The notes under the pieces: generated by a model | The model's database searches: none | What the model saw: the letters and a program-made list of their open reading frames with translations, nothing else | What the model was told of the DNA's origin: nothing | Shown: piece by piece, positions 7,866 through 14,261 of the stretch | Layout: every line of letters starts with the position of its first letter | How positions within the stretch are numbered: position 1 is the stretch's first letter | Position numbers and translations under genes: made by a program | From: a virus | IMG/VR virus record: IMGVR_UViG_3300018868_000040 | Span: 1 to 26,431 of that record | Direction: 5' to 3' (one strand) | DNA: 26,431 bases

Positions 7866-8186
7866 TTAGCCGGGGTGGGGATCAGCCTCGAACAGGTCGA
7901 GGGTCCGGGGCTGGCTCACATGGGTCGGCGTGTAGTCGGCCTTCGGCATGTGTTCCAACTGATGCTGCAGCAGCGATCGGCGGGTGTGGCTGCTCAGTGG
8001 CAGGGCTACCGATGAATCGGGGGTAGCGCTCGGGCTGATGGTGTGCTCAACCGTCGAGATGACAGAAAAGGTGTGGCCGCACTCGTAGTTGCTGCACACG
8101 AAGATGCCCTTTCGGGTCAGGTCCGTGACTTGGGCGCTGGTGCGCGAGTGCGCAGTGGCCTTGCAGTGGGGGCAACGCATCCTCAT
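7866..8186 (-). CDS. ogr: Ogr/Delta-family late-gene transcription activator with extended C-terminus
   Basis: The first 50 residues match the Ogr/Delta zinc-finger pattern: Cys5-x2-Cys8 (MRCPHC), then A-H-S-R-T-S and T-x-x-x-x-x-G near 10-27, and Cys31-x4-Cys36 followed by H-T-F. In P2 the Ogr protein binds upstream of the late promoters and recruits RNA polymerase through the alpha subunit, turning on head, lysis and tail operons. The same job is likely here for the 12.7-26.4 kb tail genes. At 106 residues it is longer than P2 Ogr (72), the extra part being a Ser/Thr/His-rich tail. Unlike in P2, the gene is not next to D but inside the early operon. A GGAG lies eight bases before the ATG. 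Confidence 0.92.
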   Translation of the reverse strand: MRMRCPHCKATAHSRTSAQVTDLTRKGIFVCSNYECGHTFSVISTVEHTISPSATPDSSVALPLSSHTRRSLLQHQLEHMPKADYTPTHVSQPRTLDLFEADPHPG

Positions 8187-8239
8187 GGGGCCAGCTCCAA
8201 AAGGGTGATTTCCCTGTCAACGAAAAATGGGGTTCGCAT
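8183..8239 (-). CDS. Possible 18-residue leader peptide upstream of ogr
   Basis: A short frame (MRTPFFVDREITLLELAP) ends with a TGA that overlaps the ogr start by four bases (ATGA), as do most gene pairs in this operon. It has no clear Shine-Dalgarno site, and the same frame is open back to the antirepressor stop. It could be a coupling leader that lets ribosomes reach ogr, or chance. Confidence 0.3.
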   Translation of the reverse strand: MRTPFFVDREITLLELAP

Positions 8240-8320
8240 GTTGATAGCCAAATAGTTCACGCTGTCACGGCTGTTGGGTGGCACCAAACACCAGGGAGGG
8301 GCGACTTGTTCGATGGTCTT

Positions 8321-8878
8321 TCAGGCAGGGATATCGCGCTGATAGGGCAGCCCCAGTTCGCCAGCCATCTTCTCGATGAGGGATCCGAGGGCCTGGCGGT
8401 CCGCCACGTCGGGCGTTTTGCTCTTGATCGAGATCAGTTGGGCGAACGACATGCGATGCCGGCGGAGCACTTCTTGGGTCTTGGCATGGTTGAGGTTCAC
8501 AGCCACGCCCAGCTCTTCGTAGTCGTGCAAGGCATCGGCCCACTCTTCCTGTTTGGCGATCAGGAAATCGGCGCCGTCAATGTTTCCTGCAGCGCGCACA
8601 CGTTCGGGACTGATGCTCGAAAGGTAGGCAGCTACTCGCGAAAGCAGGATGCAGGTCTGTTCGCGGCGTTGCCCATCTGCCGAGTACATAGGTACTTGGA
8701 CGGTCCCCAAAAAGCGAGGGTAGTAGACCCCCTCCGTCACACGCTTTCGTTGACGAACCCACTCCAGACCGAACAGATCTGCAATGGGTTTCAGGGGTGT
8801 GACTTCTTGACCTTGATCGTTTTTGGCGACTTGCAGAGTCAGGCCGGCGTACTGGATGGAGAAGGAGATTTTGGACAT
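8321..8878 (-). CDS. Phage antirepressor (P22 AR N-terminal domain)
   Basis: Residues about 1-115 of this 185-residue protein match the P22 antirepressor N-terminal domain: YAGLTLQVAKNDQGQEVTPL, KPIADLFGLEWVRQRKRV, and a CILLSRVAAYLSSISPERVR stretch like the 'x-L-P-L-x-x-L-x-x-W-L-x-x-I' element. The C-terminal part (about 120-185) is helical. P22 Ant inactivates repressors by direct binding; here the likely target is the XRE repressor at 9244-10095, which has no self-cleaving domain. It follows the RHH regulator, the same order of RHH control gene and antirepressor as Arc/Mnt and Ant in P22. The ATG at 8878 has no good Shine-Dalgarno site, so translation may be weak or controlled. Confidence 0.85.
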   Translation of the reverse strand: MSKISFSIQYAGLTLQVAKNDQGQEVTPLKPIADLFGLEWVRQRKRVTEGVYYPRFLGTVQVPMYSADGQRREQTCILLSRVAAYLSSISPERVRAAGNIDGADFLIAKQEEWADALHDYEELGVAVNLNHAKTQEVLRRHRMSFAQLISIKSKTPDVADRQALGSLIEKMAGELGLPYQRDIPA

Positions 8879-8941
8879 GGTCAGTAAAGGAGGTTGGGGA
8901 TTTCTTGGGGGAGCACCTGAGTTCCGTCTCAGCGGGCTGGT

Positions 8942-9130
8942 TCAACTGGGCAGCGAGCCTGTGCGCTGGTAGTGGTTCAGCGCTCGGATGACGATCAGGC
9001 GGGCCATGTTGGCCAGCGGGCGGTCTTCCTTTTCGGCGAGCGCCTTGAAGTCGATCAGCTCCTGCGGGAAGAGGCGCATTGCAATGGGCTTGGTGGTTTC
9101 AACCCCGTGTGGGGCGCGTTTGCGTGGCAT
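8942..9130 (-). CDS. Arc-like ribbon-helix-helix regulator
   Basis: This 62-residue protein has the strand-helix-helix pattern of Arc/MetJ repressors: KPIAMRLFPQELIDFKALAE supplies the DNA-contacting strand and first helix, and RPLANMARLIVIRALNHYQR the second. Such dimers bind short direct or inverted sites. It is the first gene of the minus-strand early operon, followed by the antirepressor gene, which in P22 is exactly what Arc controls; auto- and antirepressor control is the likely role. An AAGGA seven bases before the ATG supports the start. The leader contains a perfect palindrome (9175-9188) and an ACATAG site. Confidence 0.85.
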   Translation of the reverse strand: MPRKRAPHGVETTKPIAMRLFPQELIDFKALAEKEDRPLANMARLIVIRALNHYQRTGSLPS

Positions 9131-9174
9131 CTGTTGGTCCTTAAGAGGCAGTTACTTCTATGTGTGTCGGGTAG

Positions 9175-9188
9175 CATGGGCACCCATG
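9175..9188. promoter_or_regulatory. Perfect 14-bp dyad in the early leader
   Basis: CATGGG and CCCATG form a perfect inverted repeat separated by two bases. It lies between the outer two ACATAG sites and just upstream of the RHH gene. It may be the binding site of a second regulator, for example the RHH protein, or a small hairpin in the mRNA leader. Confidence 0.4.
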
Positions 9189-9206
9189 AAATTACATAGT
9201 GGTCGC

Positions 9207-9235
9207 ATTCTCTTATGAAAAAACATAGGAGTCAA
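9207..9235 (-). promoter_or_regulatory. Predicted early promoter of the minus-strand operon
   Basis: TTGACT (9235-9230) and GAGAAT (9212-9207) are separated by 17 bases, a 5/6 and 4/6 match to the sigma-70 consensus. It would start transcription near 9200, about 70 bases before the RHH gene. An ACATAG site lies inside the spacer and another at the start point, so a bound repressor would block it. Confidence 0.55.
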
Positions 9236-9243
9236 TAAAGTTT

Positions 9244-10095
9244 ATGGTTTTACATAGCATCGGTGATCGCCTGCGCTCCGAACGAGAGCGTCTGAAGTTG
9301 AGCCAAGCAGCGCTCGCGGAGTACGGCGGAGTAAAGCCACTCACACAACACAGCTATGAAAAAGGTAGCAGCTACCCAAATGCTGACTACTTGGCGAAAG
9401 TGAATGACCTGGGCATTGATGCCATGTACGTCATCACTGGAGCGCGCGCCAAGCCTTCGCAGGCGCTCCCGGGTGCAGAGCCCGAGATGGCTGTACTCGT
9501 GGCACTTCAGAACAGGGGCATCTTTCCAGATGGCGAAGGTGGTGGCAGAGTCTCGCCAGCAGGCTTGGCGCTGCTGTTGGACTACGTGCGTGAGGTCAAG
9601 GACAACAGGATCACAAAACTCACCAAAAAAGAGCTGCAGAAGGTCGTCAGCTTCGCTCCCAAGGATTCACGGGAATGGGTGATTCAACCTGTGGCACTCA
9701 CGCCCTATCCAGACGGAAAAGCCAGCCACATCCTGTTGGTGTATCGCAAACGGTCACCTGTTTCTGTCGTTTGGAAGATTGGCCCATTCCAAGGGGACGT
9801 ACCTTCTCGGATTGACATCACCACAGGGTCTGAACTACCGCTCAGATCTGTTGGTGAGGAGGACGACGACGAACTGCGCTGGCAACTCGATCTTTCACTC
9901 GATGGAGCAGATTCAATACTGCCTCAAGGGCTAGAGCTTCGCTTCAACCCTTTACCGATAGCTCCTGTCAAAGCACAGAAGATAAAAGAGCGGCCTGTCA
10001 GGATCCATATCGGTGGCGATGTTGGCCAGACGGTCCACGGCGATCAAATCAACCATGCTCCTGTGTCATTCAATGTTGGCAAGGCGCGAAAATAA
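9244..10095 (+). CDS. XRE-family prophage repressor without a cleavage domain
   Basis: The 283-residue protein starts with a helix-turn-helix (about 5-62: IGDRLRSERERLKLSQAALA, then YGGVKPLTQHSYEKGSSYPN and YLAKVNDLGIDAMYVITG). The middle and C-terminal regions are not a LexA/CI-type S24 peptidase: no Ser/Lys catalytic pattern or Ala-Gly cleavage site is seen. The C-terminus ends in an unusual glycine/aspartate motif, IGGDVGQTVHGDQI (256-269), followed by N-x-A-P-V-S-F-N-V-G. Divergent placement from the early operon and the ACATAG array make it the lysogeny repressor. ATG 9244 follows AGGAG at a long 12-base spacing. The gene is less G+C-rich than the tail genes. Inactivation by the antirepressor, rather than by RecA, is my inference. 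Confidence 0.85.
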   Translation: MVLHSIGDRLRSERERLKLSQAALAEYGGVKPLTQHSYEKGSSYPNADYLAKVNDLGIDAMYVITGARAKPSQALPGAEPEMAVLVALQNRGIFPDGEGGGRVSPAGLALLLDYVREVKDNRITKLTKKELQKVVSFAPKDSREWVIQPVALTPYPDGKASHILLVYRKRSPVSVVWKIGPFQGDVPSRIDITTGSELPLRSVGEEDDDELRWQLDLSLDGADSILPQGLELRFNPLPIAPVKAQKIKERPVRIHIGGDVGQTVHGDQINHAPVSFNVGKARK

Positions 10096-10122
10096 ACCCT
10101 CATTTTTCAGGAGTGATTGATT

Positions 10123-10455
10123 GTGACTAAAAGTGCAATTTGGCTTTCATATGATTTAGGTGTTCAAGGCGACTATTCATCATTGTATGAGTGGCTTGAC
10201 GAGCACAAGGCGAAAGAGTGTGGCGACTCCTTGGCATTTTTTAATTACGAACACGAAAAACCAATCAAAGACCAACTCAAGATTGATCTAAAAGATAGAA
10301 TTAATATAAACAACAGAACAAGAATTTATGTTATTTATCGTGATCATGCGACCACCAAAAATAAGGGCGCCTTTATTTTTGGTGGACGTCGAGATGCACC
10401 ATGGACTGGATGCGCATCAAATGAGGATGAAGTAGTAGATGAAGAAGGAGCGTAA
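10123..10455 (+). CDS. Cas2/VapD-like small protein paired with a PIN nuclease
   Basis: This 110-residue protein begins with a strand-loop-helix reminiscent of the Cas2/SinR/VapD ferredoxin-like group: AIWLSYDLGVQGDYSSLYEW, comparable to the '(I/L)-x-S-Y-D-L ... (D/N)-Y-x-x-L-Y-x-x(L/I)' start of those families. Further strands follow (RTRIYVIYRD and KGAFIFGGRRDAPWTG), then an acidic tail (EDEVVDEEGA). The fold call is my own reading and not a firm family match. GTG 10123 is chosen because GGAG ends nine bases upstream; a TTG at 10117 is too close. The stop (TAA) is immediately followed by the start codon of the PIN gene, so the two form one unit. The gene is A/T-rich compared with phage genes, suggesting separate acquisition. 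Role as antitoxin, toxin or defence component is open. Confidence 0.7.
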   Translation: MTKSAIWLSYDLGVQGDYSSLYEWLDEHKAKECGDSLAFFNYEHEKPIKDQLKIDLKDRININNRTRIYVIYRDHATTKNKGAFIFGGRRDAPWTGCASNEDEVVDEEGA

Positions 10456-10893
10456 TTGGCCAACATATTAGTTGATACGGGGGTGTGGTATGCCATTTTT
10501 GACAAGAACGATCACCCCCATGAGCGCGTCGAAATCGACAAACTTGCCGATTATATTCAATCCATGAATGCCATTATTCCCTGGCCAGTAATCTACGAAA
10601 CAGTTTGCACGAGATTTGCAAAAAACAAAATTGCACTAACGGGTTTTGAGAAGATTCTTAAATCGGCACGAGTAAGTATTATTGACGATGCTCCATTTCG
10701 TCAATCCGCACTTGATCATTCATTTAATTCATCAATCCGCAGGCAACGTCCTCTCAGCTTCACTGATTGCCTCTTAAGGGTGATGATTGACAGCAGCGAT
10801 ATGAGAATAAGCTCTTTCGCAACCTTTAATGCCGGCGATTTCTCCGATATATGTTACGGGCGTGGGGTGGATATTATTCCAAGTCAATATTAG
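10456..10893 (+). CDS. PIN-domain nuclease
   Basis: The 145-residue protein has the complete acidic set of a PIN ribonuclease: Asp7 in ILVDTGVWYA, Glu48 in PVIYETV, Asp104 in LSFTDCLLRV, and Asp128 in TFNAGDF. These bind Mg/Mn and cut RNA, as in VapC-type toxins. It starts with TTG directly after the stop of the preceding gene, with GAAGGAG five bases upstream, so it is certainly co-expressed with it. VapC toxins normally sit with a DNA-binding antitoxin (VapB, AbrB or RHH type); the partner here is not of that kind, so this may be a non-standard toxin-antitoxin or phage-defence pair. Length is normal for the family. A/T-rich. End at 10893 is 28 bases from the convergent DUF4238 gene. Confidence 0.88.
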   Translation: MANILVDTGVWYAIFDKNDHPHERVEIDKLADYIQSMNAIIPWPVIYETVCTRFAKNKIALTGFEKILKSARVSIIDDAPFRQSALDHSFNSSIRRQRPLSFTDCLLRVMIDSSDMRISSFATFNAGDFSDICYGRGVDIIPSQY

Positions 10894-10921
10894 CTCCCGC
10901 AAACAAATTGGCGCCCTGAAT

Positions 10922-11872
10922 TCAAAGTTCCAAATCTGAATTTGCACCGCCTCTAGTTGCTCGAATTTTTTCTAGCACACTCATCTCGGAAGCATAGACT
11001 TGACGTTGACTTCTTGCAGTCATCTGCAAATTGAGAGTTACGATTTCTTCTTCGGTTAAACCGAACTCTGGAAGCGTAGGCCTCCCCGGCTCGCCAATAT
11101 GCAAAGCGAGTCTTGGCGAGATTGGATAGTAAATTGTCATCTGCTCTGGCGCATTTTCTCCATCAGCATCGAGATTAACTACCGGCTGGTCGGATGTAAC
11201 GAATGGCATTGAACTCTCATTACGAACAAGAATAAGCGGCCGGTCTTTTCTGCCCATAAACATACTGCACCCAAGATTAAATCCATAAATAAGACCAATT
11301 ACTCCCCAGATGCGACTTACATCCAGTTTTATTCGATTTCTCAGCCTCTCAATGACTCTTGATTGAACGGCCTTAGTTCGCATGTGCTGAGCGGCAATGA
11401 AATTACAGAACGCAATAGCACTCTGGGGATCATCAAACCATGTGATATCTTCCTTTAGGCAGCGGGCGAGAAGCGGAACGAACTTCCCCTCAATAACAGT
11501 GTGCTGGTCATCTATGGCATTTGTTTTATGAATTTCCAGCAACTCCAGAACTTCAGGTTGTTGGAGTAGTTCAGGGTGCTGTTGCGATAGGAGCAGCGGA
11601 CTGAGGATGTTGTGAAGCACCATTTCGTAGTGGCGTCGCGCGATCGGTGAAGCCTGCTCAACTGTTAGCAGTCGAATTAGTTTTATCTCTTCACTGGTTA
11701 AGTCTTGCAATTTATAGAAGTTGTTCTCAACACCAAGTGACTTGGTACCAGTAGCGAAAATCCGTTCATCCATCAAGCAATGAAGTGAGCCGTTCGTCAC
11801 CCACGCCTTGAGGTAGTGCTGCCAAATGAAGTGCTGGTAAGGCTTTCTGATGGGTACGTGTGTGTTCGCCAT
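10922..11872 (-). CDS. DUF4238 family protein
   Basis: The 316-residue protein has the DUF4238 start (HFIWQHYLKAW..NGSL, equivalent to the family's 'H-x-x-P-x-x-Y-L-x-x-F/W' opening), then a KSLGVENNFYKL segment, a helical middle, and a FVTSDQPVV strand typical of the C-terminal half ('P-F-x-T-S-D-x-P-V'). Function of the family is not established. The gene is convergent to the PIN pair with 28 bases between stops and no evident terminator, and is visibly A/T-rich compared with the tail genes. It therefore looks like part of the accessory cargo. Position suggests a lysogenic-conversion or defence role, but nothing in the sequence shows catalysis. Confidence 0.8.
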   Translation of the reverse strand: MANTHVPIRKPYQHFIWQHYLKAWVTNGSLHCLMDERIFATGTKSLGVENNFYKLQDLTSEEIKLIRLLTVEQASPIARRHYEMVLHNILSPLLLSQQHPELLQQPEVLELLEIHKTNAIDDQHTVIEGKFVPLLARCLKEDITWFDDPQSAIAFCNFIAAQHMRTKAVQSRVIERLRNRIKLDVSRIWGVIGLIYGFNLGCSMFMGRKDRPLILVRNESSMPFVTSDQPVVNLDADGENAPEQMTIYYPISPRLALHIGEPGRPTLPEFGLTEEEIVTLNLQMTARSQRQVYASEMSVLEKIRATRGGANSDLEL

Positions 11873-12028
11873 AACGGAAGCTTATCTGAAAGCTGCCAAA
11901 AATTGGCATCATGAAGCACGATTCGGAATCGCGGACGTCCGATCTATTTCAACGCTGCAAAGAAGCTCAAAACAGTTGATCATCCCAACACGAAAAGGCG
12001 GACCAAACAACACCGCCGGGAGATCAGG

Positions 12029-12442: not shown

Positions 12443-12793
12443 TTGCGCCGGGATGAGTGGCCTGCGCCCATAGAGGGGCGCCTCCAAATGGTCGAAATGG
12501 ATGCGCGCATCTCCTCTTTCAGGCGGGCCACACACATGGCCCAGTTGATTCAGATGCAGGGGATGGTTGCCGTACCCGCTGAGGTTCTGGCTGACCCAGT
12601 GATGACCCATGTCGTTGAGCGCGGTTTCGTGCTGCGAGGCATCCAACTGCACGTCGAGGGCGACCGGGTCTGGGAGCATGAGCAGGTGTGGCTAGTGACT
12701 CCTGTCATTGGCAGCGGTGGCCGAGCCTCCTCATCATTCGATCAGTCATCCGAACCGATGCTCGAGCTGTCGCCTGTGGCGTCGTCCTCCTGA
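12443..12793 (+). CDS. Plus-strand protein of unknown function behind a LexA-like box
   Basis: The 116-residue reading starts at TTG 12443 (GAGG seven bases upstream). The protein is helical in its first half (RLQMVEMDARISSFRRATHM, then AQLIQMQG) and has a beta-like second half (ERGFVLRGIQLHVEGDRVWE, HEQVWLVTP), with a Ser-rich tail. I do not recognise the family. The start is uncertain: GTG 12401 would overlap the LexA-like box, and ATG 12488 with GAGGGG nine bases upstream is a good shorter option (101 residues). The last 52 bases overlap the 3' end of the convergent D gene. If the LexA-like box is real, the gene is SOS-induced; in phage 186 the LexA-controlled tum gene triggers prophage induction, so an analogous role is possible but unproven. 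Confidence 0.65.
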   Translation: MRRDEWPAPIEGRLQMVEMDARISSFRRATHMAQLIQMQGMVAVPAEVLADPVMTHVVERGFVLRGIQLHVEGDRVWEHEQVWLVTPVIGSGGRASSSFDQSSEPMLELSPVASSS

Positions 12794-13821
12794 GCCGTAT
12801 CGTCGTCTGGAACCGCCCCTGTTTCGAGTTCGACACGGGTGGTGAGTCCAGCGTCCCCGAGGTGGTGGTGCACCTTCACCACCAGCCAGGCTGTGCCGTC
12901 GATGTCCGATTTGAAGCCTTTCACGGTGACCGGGGTCTGCGGCATCAGCTCCGGGCGGCCGAGGGCCAGCGTCAGCTCAAGCGTAGCCGCCCCACGAGCG
13001 ATCCGGTTCATCTCTGCTCGGGCCGCGGCCAACGCATCGGCCTCACTGCCGTAAGTGTCCTTCAGCCGCTTCTCGTGGCCCTTCTTGCCGACCAGCACAC
13101 CGCGCCGGCGGGCTCGGCCAGCGTCGTGCCAGTAGGCCCGCACGCCGCTGTAGCTGTCGCGGTCGCTGATGTGGAAACGGTGCTGGTCGCCGTCGTCTCG
13201 GCTGATCGCGACCTTAGCCAGGGCCTGCCCTGAGCTGCTGCGCGTGCCGTTGATGGGCAAGAACACCAAGCGCTCCTTTTTGACGGTGGCAACGGCGTCG
13301 TGCTGGGTTGCCAGGCGGGTCAAGAAGTGCAGGTCACTTTCACCTGTCTGGTCGATGTGACCGATTTTCACGCTCGACAGCGCGGCATCCACCCTGCCCT
13401 GCAGTTCATGCCGCTTGGCAATGGTGCCCACGATGTCGCCCAGGGTGGTGGCGTGCCAGCTCTGATCGCGGCGGATGCGCAGGCTCTTGCGCATGTCGGC
13501 GGCCCGGGCGCGGATGTGCACCTGGTCGGGTGAACCGCTGTGCTCCACCTCATCGACGGTGAACAGGCCTTTGTCGATCAAGGTCTGTCCCGCCCACCCA
13601 AGGCGCAGCGCGATCTCAGCTCCGCGCGGGGGCAGGCGCACGGCGCCGTCGCTGTCGTTGAGCACCAGGTCGAGCTGATCGCTTTCATTGCCGCGGCACT
13701 CACTGAGTGACAGGCTTTCCAGCCGAGCATCGATCGAGGGGGTGATGTCCCGGCCGTCGATGGTCAAGGCAAAGTCAGGGGCCCGATAGGGTGCCCGGTC
13801 CATGTAAGGGTTTGTCGCCAT
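12742..13821 (-). CDS. D: Late control gene D protein (tail hub, gpD)
   Basis: The 359-residue protein is the P2 gpD-type hub protein. The opening (YMDRAPYRAPDFALTIDGRD) and SLSLSECRGNESDQLDLVLN, GLFTVDEVEHSGSPDQVHIR and SDLHFLTRLATQHDAVATVK are all standard for the family, and the beta-rich body is followed by a strongly acidic tail (DDDTAQEDDATGDSSSIGSD). It forms the ring linking the tail tube to the baseplate spike. ATG 13821 is chosen over GTG 13830 because it overlaps the stop of U by one base (TGATG). As in P2 it is the last gene of the F-operon-type set; here ogr does not follow it. Its 3' end overlaps a plus-strand gene by 52 bases. Confidence 0.94.
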   Translation of the reverse strand: MATNPYMDRAPYRAPDFALTIDGRDITPSIDARLESLSLSECRGNESDQLDLVLNDSDGAVRLPPRGAEIALRLGWAGQTLIDKGLFTVDEVEHSGSPDQVHIRARAADMRKSLRIRRDQSWHATTLGDIVGTIAKRHELQGRVDAALSSVKIGHIDQTGESDLHFLTRLATQHDAVATVKKERLVFLPINGTRSSSGQALAKVAISRDDGDQHRFHISDRDSYSGVRAYWHDAGRARRRGVLVGKKGHEKRLKDTYGSEADALAAARAEMNRIARGAATLELTLALGRPELMPQTPVTVKGFKSDIDGTAWLVVKVHHHLGDAGLTTRVELETGAVPDDDTAQEDDATGDSSSIGSDD

Positions 13822-14261
13822 CAGATCCACCAGTCCACCGGCCAGGGCTCGCCAGGGTTCACGCCACCGCTCGCATCGGCCATCTTGTCGTCCACCCGGG
13901 CCAGGCTCAGGTCAAATGAAATGCGCCGCGGCACGCCCTGGGCCACAAACACCGAGCCGGTCTCGCTGATGCCCTCGATCACCCAGGCCCCGTACACGCC
14001 GCCGGCACCGTCCACCAGCGCCCAGGCCCGGCCACTGTCGGCCATGTCGCGCAACTGGGGCAGCGACTGCCTGGTGCCCATGAACTCGGGCACCTGCACG
14101 CCGGTCAGGTTGATCGTGTCATCACCTGGACCGACGAACTGACGGGCTGGGCGCTGACCGACCCGGGAGTTGCTGGGGTGGCGCCAGGTGGTCTGGCGCT
14201 TCAGCTCTTCAAAGGCCAGCGTGTTCAGGCTGAACACGAACTGGCCGAGGCTCATCATCAT
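13821..14261 (-). CDS. U: Phage tail protein U (gpU)
   Basis: The 146-residue protein has the gpU signature: SLGQFVFSLNTLAFEELKRQ, TTWRHPSNSRVGQRPARQFVG-type opening and the DDTINLTGVQVPEF segment, with a GAWVIEGISETGSVFVAQG region. gpU is a tail-completion protein at the head-proximal end of the contractile tail. The first of three ATG codons is used, with GAGAG six bases upstream. It lies 13 bases after the tape measure gene and overlaps D by one base, as in P2. Confidence 0.94.
   Translation of the reverse strand: MMMSLGQFVFSLNTLAFEELKRQTTWRHPSNSRVGQRPARQFVGPGDDTINLTGVQVPEFMGTRQSLPQLRDMADSGRAWALVDGAGGVYGAWVIEGISETGSVFVAQGVPRRISFDLSLARVDDKMADASGGVNPGEPWPVDWWI

Follow-up and report, generated by a model that had tools for sequence, protein, structure and literature searches.

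PIN-domain toxins rank with the most common toxins of bacteria; the antitoxins known for them are mostly DNA-binding proteins. The Cas2-type fold is absent from the antitoxin lists of PMC2701414, and the Cas2-fold antitoxins that are already known (VapW) counteract VapD toxins. In the VapD-VapX, VapD-VapY, and VapD-VapW modules, VapD is the toxin; VapW is a VapD-fold antitoxin that has lost the catalytic residues, and neither PIN nor VapC is mentioned in the paper on these modules (PMC11980593). Kinship between Cas2 and the VapD toxin, together with a toxin-like role for Cas2, has been proposed (PMC3506569). BPSL1038, from a Cas2/VapD nuclease subfamily of Burkholderia, is a stand-alone protein with a Cas2-type fold and the motif D11(X20)SST; its description does not use the word 'operon', and it is not known to have a PIN partner (PMC10491678). 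DS-5 is a two-protein defence system in which a PIN ribonuclease requires a partner, with DUF5830 and an AcrIF4-like domain, that is not an antitoxin (PMC13092281). The NetFlax antitoxin SynP1 is listed among the partners of nuclease toxins (PMC10440598) and, judged by that text, might be a relative.

The two-gene cassette analysed here lies in a 26,431-nt stretch of viral DNA (the window). As in VapBC type II toxin-antitoxin systems, gene B encodes a protein with a predicted VapC fold and four acidic residues, and a small partner gene (A) lies directly upstream, abutting gene B here and adjacent to or overlapping it in homologous loci. Unlike in VapBC, the predicted fold of the gene A protein is Cas2-type rather than RHH, AbrB, Phd, HTH, or MerR, and it has no recognisable DNA-binding domain. 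As in the VapD modules, a ferredoxin fold of the Cas2/VapD type forms part of a two-gene unit, but the second gene specifies a PIN nuclease rather than a VapD toxin and the gene A protein keeps Asp11, two differences that also separate it from VapW. Like CRISPR-associated Cas2, the gene A protein has this predicted fold, with an aspartate ending the first strand; it differs in lacking a Cas1 partner and in its additional acidic tail, and its sequence shows no significant similarity to Cas2. BPSL1038 shares the Cas2-type fold and Asp11 but has its own motif, and DS-5 likewise joins a PIN ribonuclease to a second protein, which in our case has a predicted Cas2 fold instead.

In the sources searched, we found no description of a Cas2-fold protein that both pairs with a PIN protein and retains the aspartate, and a search of the open-licence literature, which would miss a subscription-only description, returned no case of a PIN module partnered by a Cas2-type protein. 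We think that the cassette is probably a type II-like toxin-antitoxin module, in which a VapC-type PIN toxin would be paired with a Cas2-fold antitoxin. An earlier note on this DNA had not proposed such an arrangement, which the one-sided decay described below suggests. If gene A does encode an antitoxin, it would add a new antitoxin type for PIN toxins, in a gene family that is small and well defined, and the presence of a core CRISPR protein fold in a toxin-antitoxin-like module would bear on the Cas2-VapD kinship and the toxin-like role of Cas2 proposed in PMC3506569.

Layout and prophage setting

The cassette and its surroundings in the window are as follows.

7866-8186: ogr-like gene of the P2-like prophage
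8229-11988, no strand: variable segment, swapped for a 1.4-kb segment (other repressor plus cargo) in the sister prophage L082
9244-10095, plus strand: HTH repressor-like prophage gene, 27 nt upstream of gene A on the same strand
10109-10113, plus strand: AGGAG, likely ribosome-binding site of gene A, read from the sequence
10123-10455, plus strand: gene A, GTG start, 110 aa; Cas2-fold partner by structural model, predicted antitoxin, with a disordered acidic C-terminal tail
10444-10450, plus strand: GAAGGAG, likely ribosome-binding site of gene B within the 3' end of gene A, read from the sequence
10456-10893, plus strand: gene B, TTG start, 145 aa; VapC-fold PIN nuclease, predicted toxin; its start abuts the gene A stop
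10922-11872, minus strand: DUF4238 gene, low in GC, convergent, behind the cassette
12742-13830: gene D of the P2-like prophage

The gap between the gene A stop and the gene B start is zero, with both genes on the same strand, and the coordinates, frames, abutting TAA and TTG codons, and GAAGGAG motif reported in the earlier note are correct by sequence. The P2-like setting that it described was borne out by the ogr-like gene, gene D, and tail genes that match those of P2-like phages, as was the A/T-rich character of the cassette (~39-43% GC, compared with ~60-66% in the flanking phage genes) and its position in a variable slot. In L082, which is 92-93% identical to the window prophage, the same slot is occupied by a repressor and a 157-aa gene that both differ from the genes of the window, and in L081, whose repressor is 69% identical, other genes occupy the place of the cassette. 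The DUF4238 gene is probably separate cargo. Another P2-related phage group has a defence hotspot adjoining the repressor (PMC9122126). The interval between the repressor gene and gene A contained no called promoter-like or terminator-like site, and the promoter of the repressor gene probably drives the cassette in a lysogen.

By eye, the 157-aa slot protein of L082 (L082:8918-9391) is BRCT-like. The repressors of the window (9244-10095), L082 (L082:9434-9931), and L081 (L081:5992-6846) have in common a C-terminal stretch, GG/GN-VGQ...G(D/N)...F.VG, outside of which those of L082 and the window differ.

Predicted folds and conserved residues

Gene B matched the Pfam PIN family weakly (E 0.001) and scored 17.5 bits against the NCBIfam VapC model, for which the cut-off is 80 bits. 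The top PDB matches of its AlphaFold model (pLDDT 92) were nearly all VapC toxins, and the nearest solved proteins by sequence profile were AF_1683 and VapC20. The four acidic PIN residues to which the earlier note drew attention are intact in the window protein; Asp7, Glu48, and Asp104 were invariant in 18/18 homologues and Asp128 was present in 17/18. A PADLOC lead for the window protein, PDC-M08B, was weak (E 0.0055) and was rejected.

Gene A had no meaningful family match in Pfam, NCBIfam, PHROGs, or PADLOC, and no RHH, AbrB, HTH, or Phd domain was matched in Pfam or NCBIfam, in keeping with the earlier view that the partner is not of the VapB type. Its AlphaFold model (pLDDT 83, with a disordered tail) has the topology strand, helix, strand, helix, strand, strand. 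Among the 50 PDB matches listed for this model, the top 12 were all Cas2 chains; the best had a probability of 1.00, a TM score of 0.74 by target length, and an E-value of 0.028, and no match reached E 0.001. The nearest fold of the modelled protein is Cas2, of the ferredoxin-like type. The earlier note had called the partner Cas2/VapD-like; the model supports the Cas2 part of that description, and no VapD structure appeared among the 50 matches listed to support a special tie to VapD. Kinship to Cas2 by sequence profile was not significant: hhalign aligned gene A to canonical Cas2 with a probability of 2%, with Asp11 in register, and gave 6% for a reversed control. This comparison has little power: the canonical and type I-E groups, both accepted as Cas2, match each other no better (just 1%). 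The PADLOC leads for gene A, PDC-S15 and Cas2d, were weak and matched by one member each (best E 0.019), no named match in the viral fold library was convincing, and the PDB sequence search with gene A did not retrieve BPSL1038.

The opening pattern noted earlier (Y10-D11-L12 ... Y18-x-x-L-Y22) and the acidic tail are both present and conserved, with 4-8 acidic residues in the tail of every homologue. Asp11 was invariant in 23/23 homologues and occupies the position of the catalytic aspartate of Cas2 and VapD, at the end of strand 1, so gene A may have an activity of its own. Position 36, by eye the counterpart of the second catalytic residue (Ser), was Ser in 18/23 homologues and Asn or Cys in 5/23. 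Conservation of the VapD and Cas2 aspartate, together with the predominance of Ser36, would suit a module of opposite polarity, in which A is a VapD/Cas2-like nuclease toxin restrained by B; the substitutions at position 36 and the retention by B of a full PIN active site argue against this arrangement, which we regard as very improbable.

Gene A has 23 invariant residues, including Trp7, Asp11, Arg67, Arg89, Pro93, and Trp94. This high conservation, and the ligand or nucleic-acid site that these six residues suggest, favour the main alternative to a toxin-antitoxin module, namely a single defence nuclease that needs both A and B as subunits, with the Cas2-fold protein recognising nucleic acid or a phage product, B cutting, and A not acting as an antitoxin. 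The required, non-antitoxin partner of DS-5 (PMC13092281) provides a precedent, and the prophage cargo slot and the defence genes that adjoin some other loci fit the same idea. The distribution and decay of the genes speak against it, as set out below, and we consider it possible but unlikely.

Pairing and distribution

Gene A was found on one plasmid (Advenella) and at 21 genome loci, and family searches added more. Thirty loci with an intact gene A were spread over several proteobacterial classes, Desulfobacterota, Bacteroidales, a plasmid, and the window prophage. Gene B was intact at 20 of these (counting the divergent B of L022 and that of L017, whose C-terminus is altered), broken at 7, and missing from 3, so that B or its remains lay directly downstream of A in 27/30 loci. 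Beyond the 30, L038 has an intact B and a gene A cut by the contig end. The A-then-B order was kept in the homologous loci measured, with spacings of -8 to +3 nt, and the recurrence of adjacent, same-strand genes in distantly related bacteria indicates more than chance. The main survey was seeded from gene A; in a reverse PIN-profile search covering 306 genomes of two families and the 21 seed genomes, each intact close relative of B adjoined A. Distances among A proteins closely tracked those among B proteins (Mantel r 0.82, n 18), which fits genes that are inherited together. The earlier note had listed as contrary outcomes an unrelated fold in genes that do not co-occur, or a toxin-antitoxin family already catalogued; we found a predicted Cas2 fold, strict pairing, and no entry for the pair in Pfam, NCBIfam, PHROGs, or PADLOC; neither gene matched a PADLOC model of phage defence, known or candidate.

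Gene A occurred in 6/38, 4/268, 2/298, and 2/86 genomes of the families holding a seed genome (seeds included) and in 0/368 of the other Gammaproteobacteria sampled. The chromosomal contexts of most copies are unrelated, with ordinary genes all around, and some neighbours are defence genes; no constant or obligatory third gene emerged among 108 neighbour proteins, just one of which matched cas1. The scattered distribution, the plasmid copy, and the lack of a constant third gene fit a mobile two-gene module. Scans of viral contigs yielded no further contig with the cassette; with most copies in chromosomal contexts, its description as prophage cargo, accurate for the window, does not hold for the family. 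The ordinary chromosomal settings and strong conservation of A could also reflect a housekeeping RNA-processing pair with no role in conflict, but the genes are rare and scattered even inside families and include a plasmid copy and a prophage copy, and B decays often, making this explanation very improbable.

No shared operator-like palindrome was seen within 120 nt upstream of the homologous loci. Strong hairpins upstream in L014 and L020 were rejected as operators, as they resemble terminators that serve the gene before. In an Entotheonella genome, a partial duplicate of gene A lies directly upstream of the full copy (L026:4971-5492).

One-sided decay and a proposed mechanism

Comparison of the loci suggests that A would be the antidote and B the poison. 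First, B decays while A persists: beside an intact A, gene B is broken in L002, L004, L009, L018, L021, L030, and L031 and absent from L024, L025, and L165, having been lost by frameshift, deletion, truncation, or absence, in events that are not all independent and, as most loci are metagenome bins, may in some cases be shared or assembly artefacts. Second, no intact B without A was found among close B relatives in the 306 genomes of two families and the 21 seed genomes. Third, the solo A genes of L024 and L025, the sole measurable solo pair, have a dN of 0.016 and a dS of 1.24, indicating strong purifying selection and suggesting that A is not harmful alone. These solo copies could act in trans, because both genomes also hold an intact pair.

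The same observations weigh on the alternatives. A protein needed only as a subunit of a defence nuclease would not be expected to outlast a working B in 10 loci when no intact B was found without A in the genomes searched, and the neighbourhoods are largely unrelated to defence. With the polarity reversed, a toxin gene would not be tolerated intact where its restraint is broken or absent, or kept under purifying selection as in L024 and L025. Some points do run against a plain toxin-antitoxin module: A, at 52% mean identity between pairs, is better conserved than B, at 38%, unlike a fast-evolving antitoxin; it lacks a recognisable DNA-binding domain, with no shared palindrome seen upstream, and keeps Asp11.

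In the toxin-antitoxin module that we favour, A would be produced first, from a transcript shared with gene B and, in a lysogen, made behind the repressor. Its Cas2-fold protein may bind and inhibit B, with the disordered acidic tail perhaps obstructing the active site or the RNA groove of the PIN protein. B, as a VapC-type PIN endoribonuclease, would target the translation machinery by cutting tRNA or rRNA, and the cassette might stabilise the prophage or respond to an incoming phage upon loss or displacement of A. A more specific proposal, which we hold tentatively and think rather unlikely, is a sensor-effector pair in which the Cas2-fold A, with its aspartate kept, restrains B and releases it upon meeting nucleic acid or a phage product. 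If true, such a pair would show the Cas2 fold at work outside CRISPR and would be a present-day instance of the toxin-antitoxin ancestry that has been proposed for Cas2.

Three of the decayed loci have other features of note. In the Methylococcaceae loci L024 (5433-5747) and L025 (1090-1401), solo gene A is followed by genes that by eye are hicA/hicB-like, with no PIN gene. In L021, a CRISPR array of 18 repeats with 64-65 nt spacing (L021:6229-7370) lies behind the A and B genes and truncates the PIN gene, and a cas1-cas2 locus stands at the far end of this array on the same contig.
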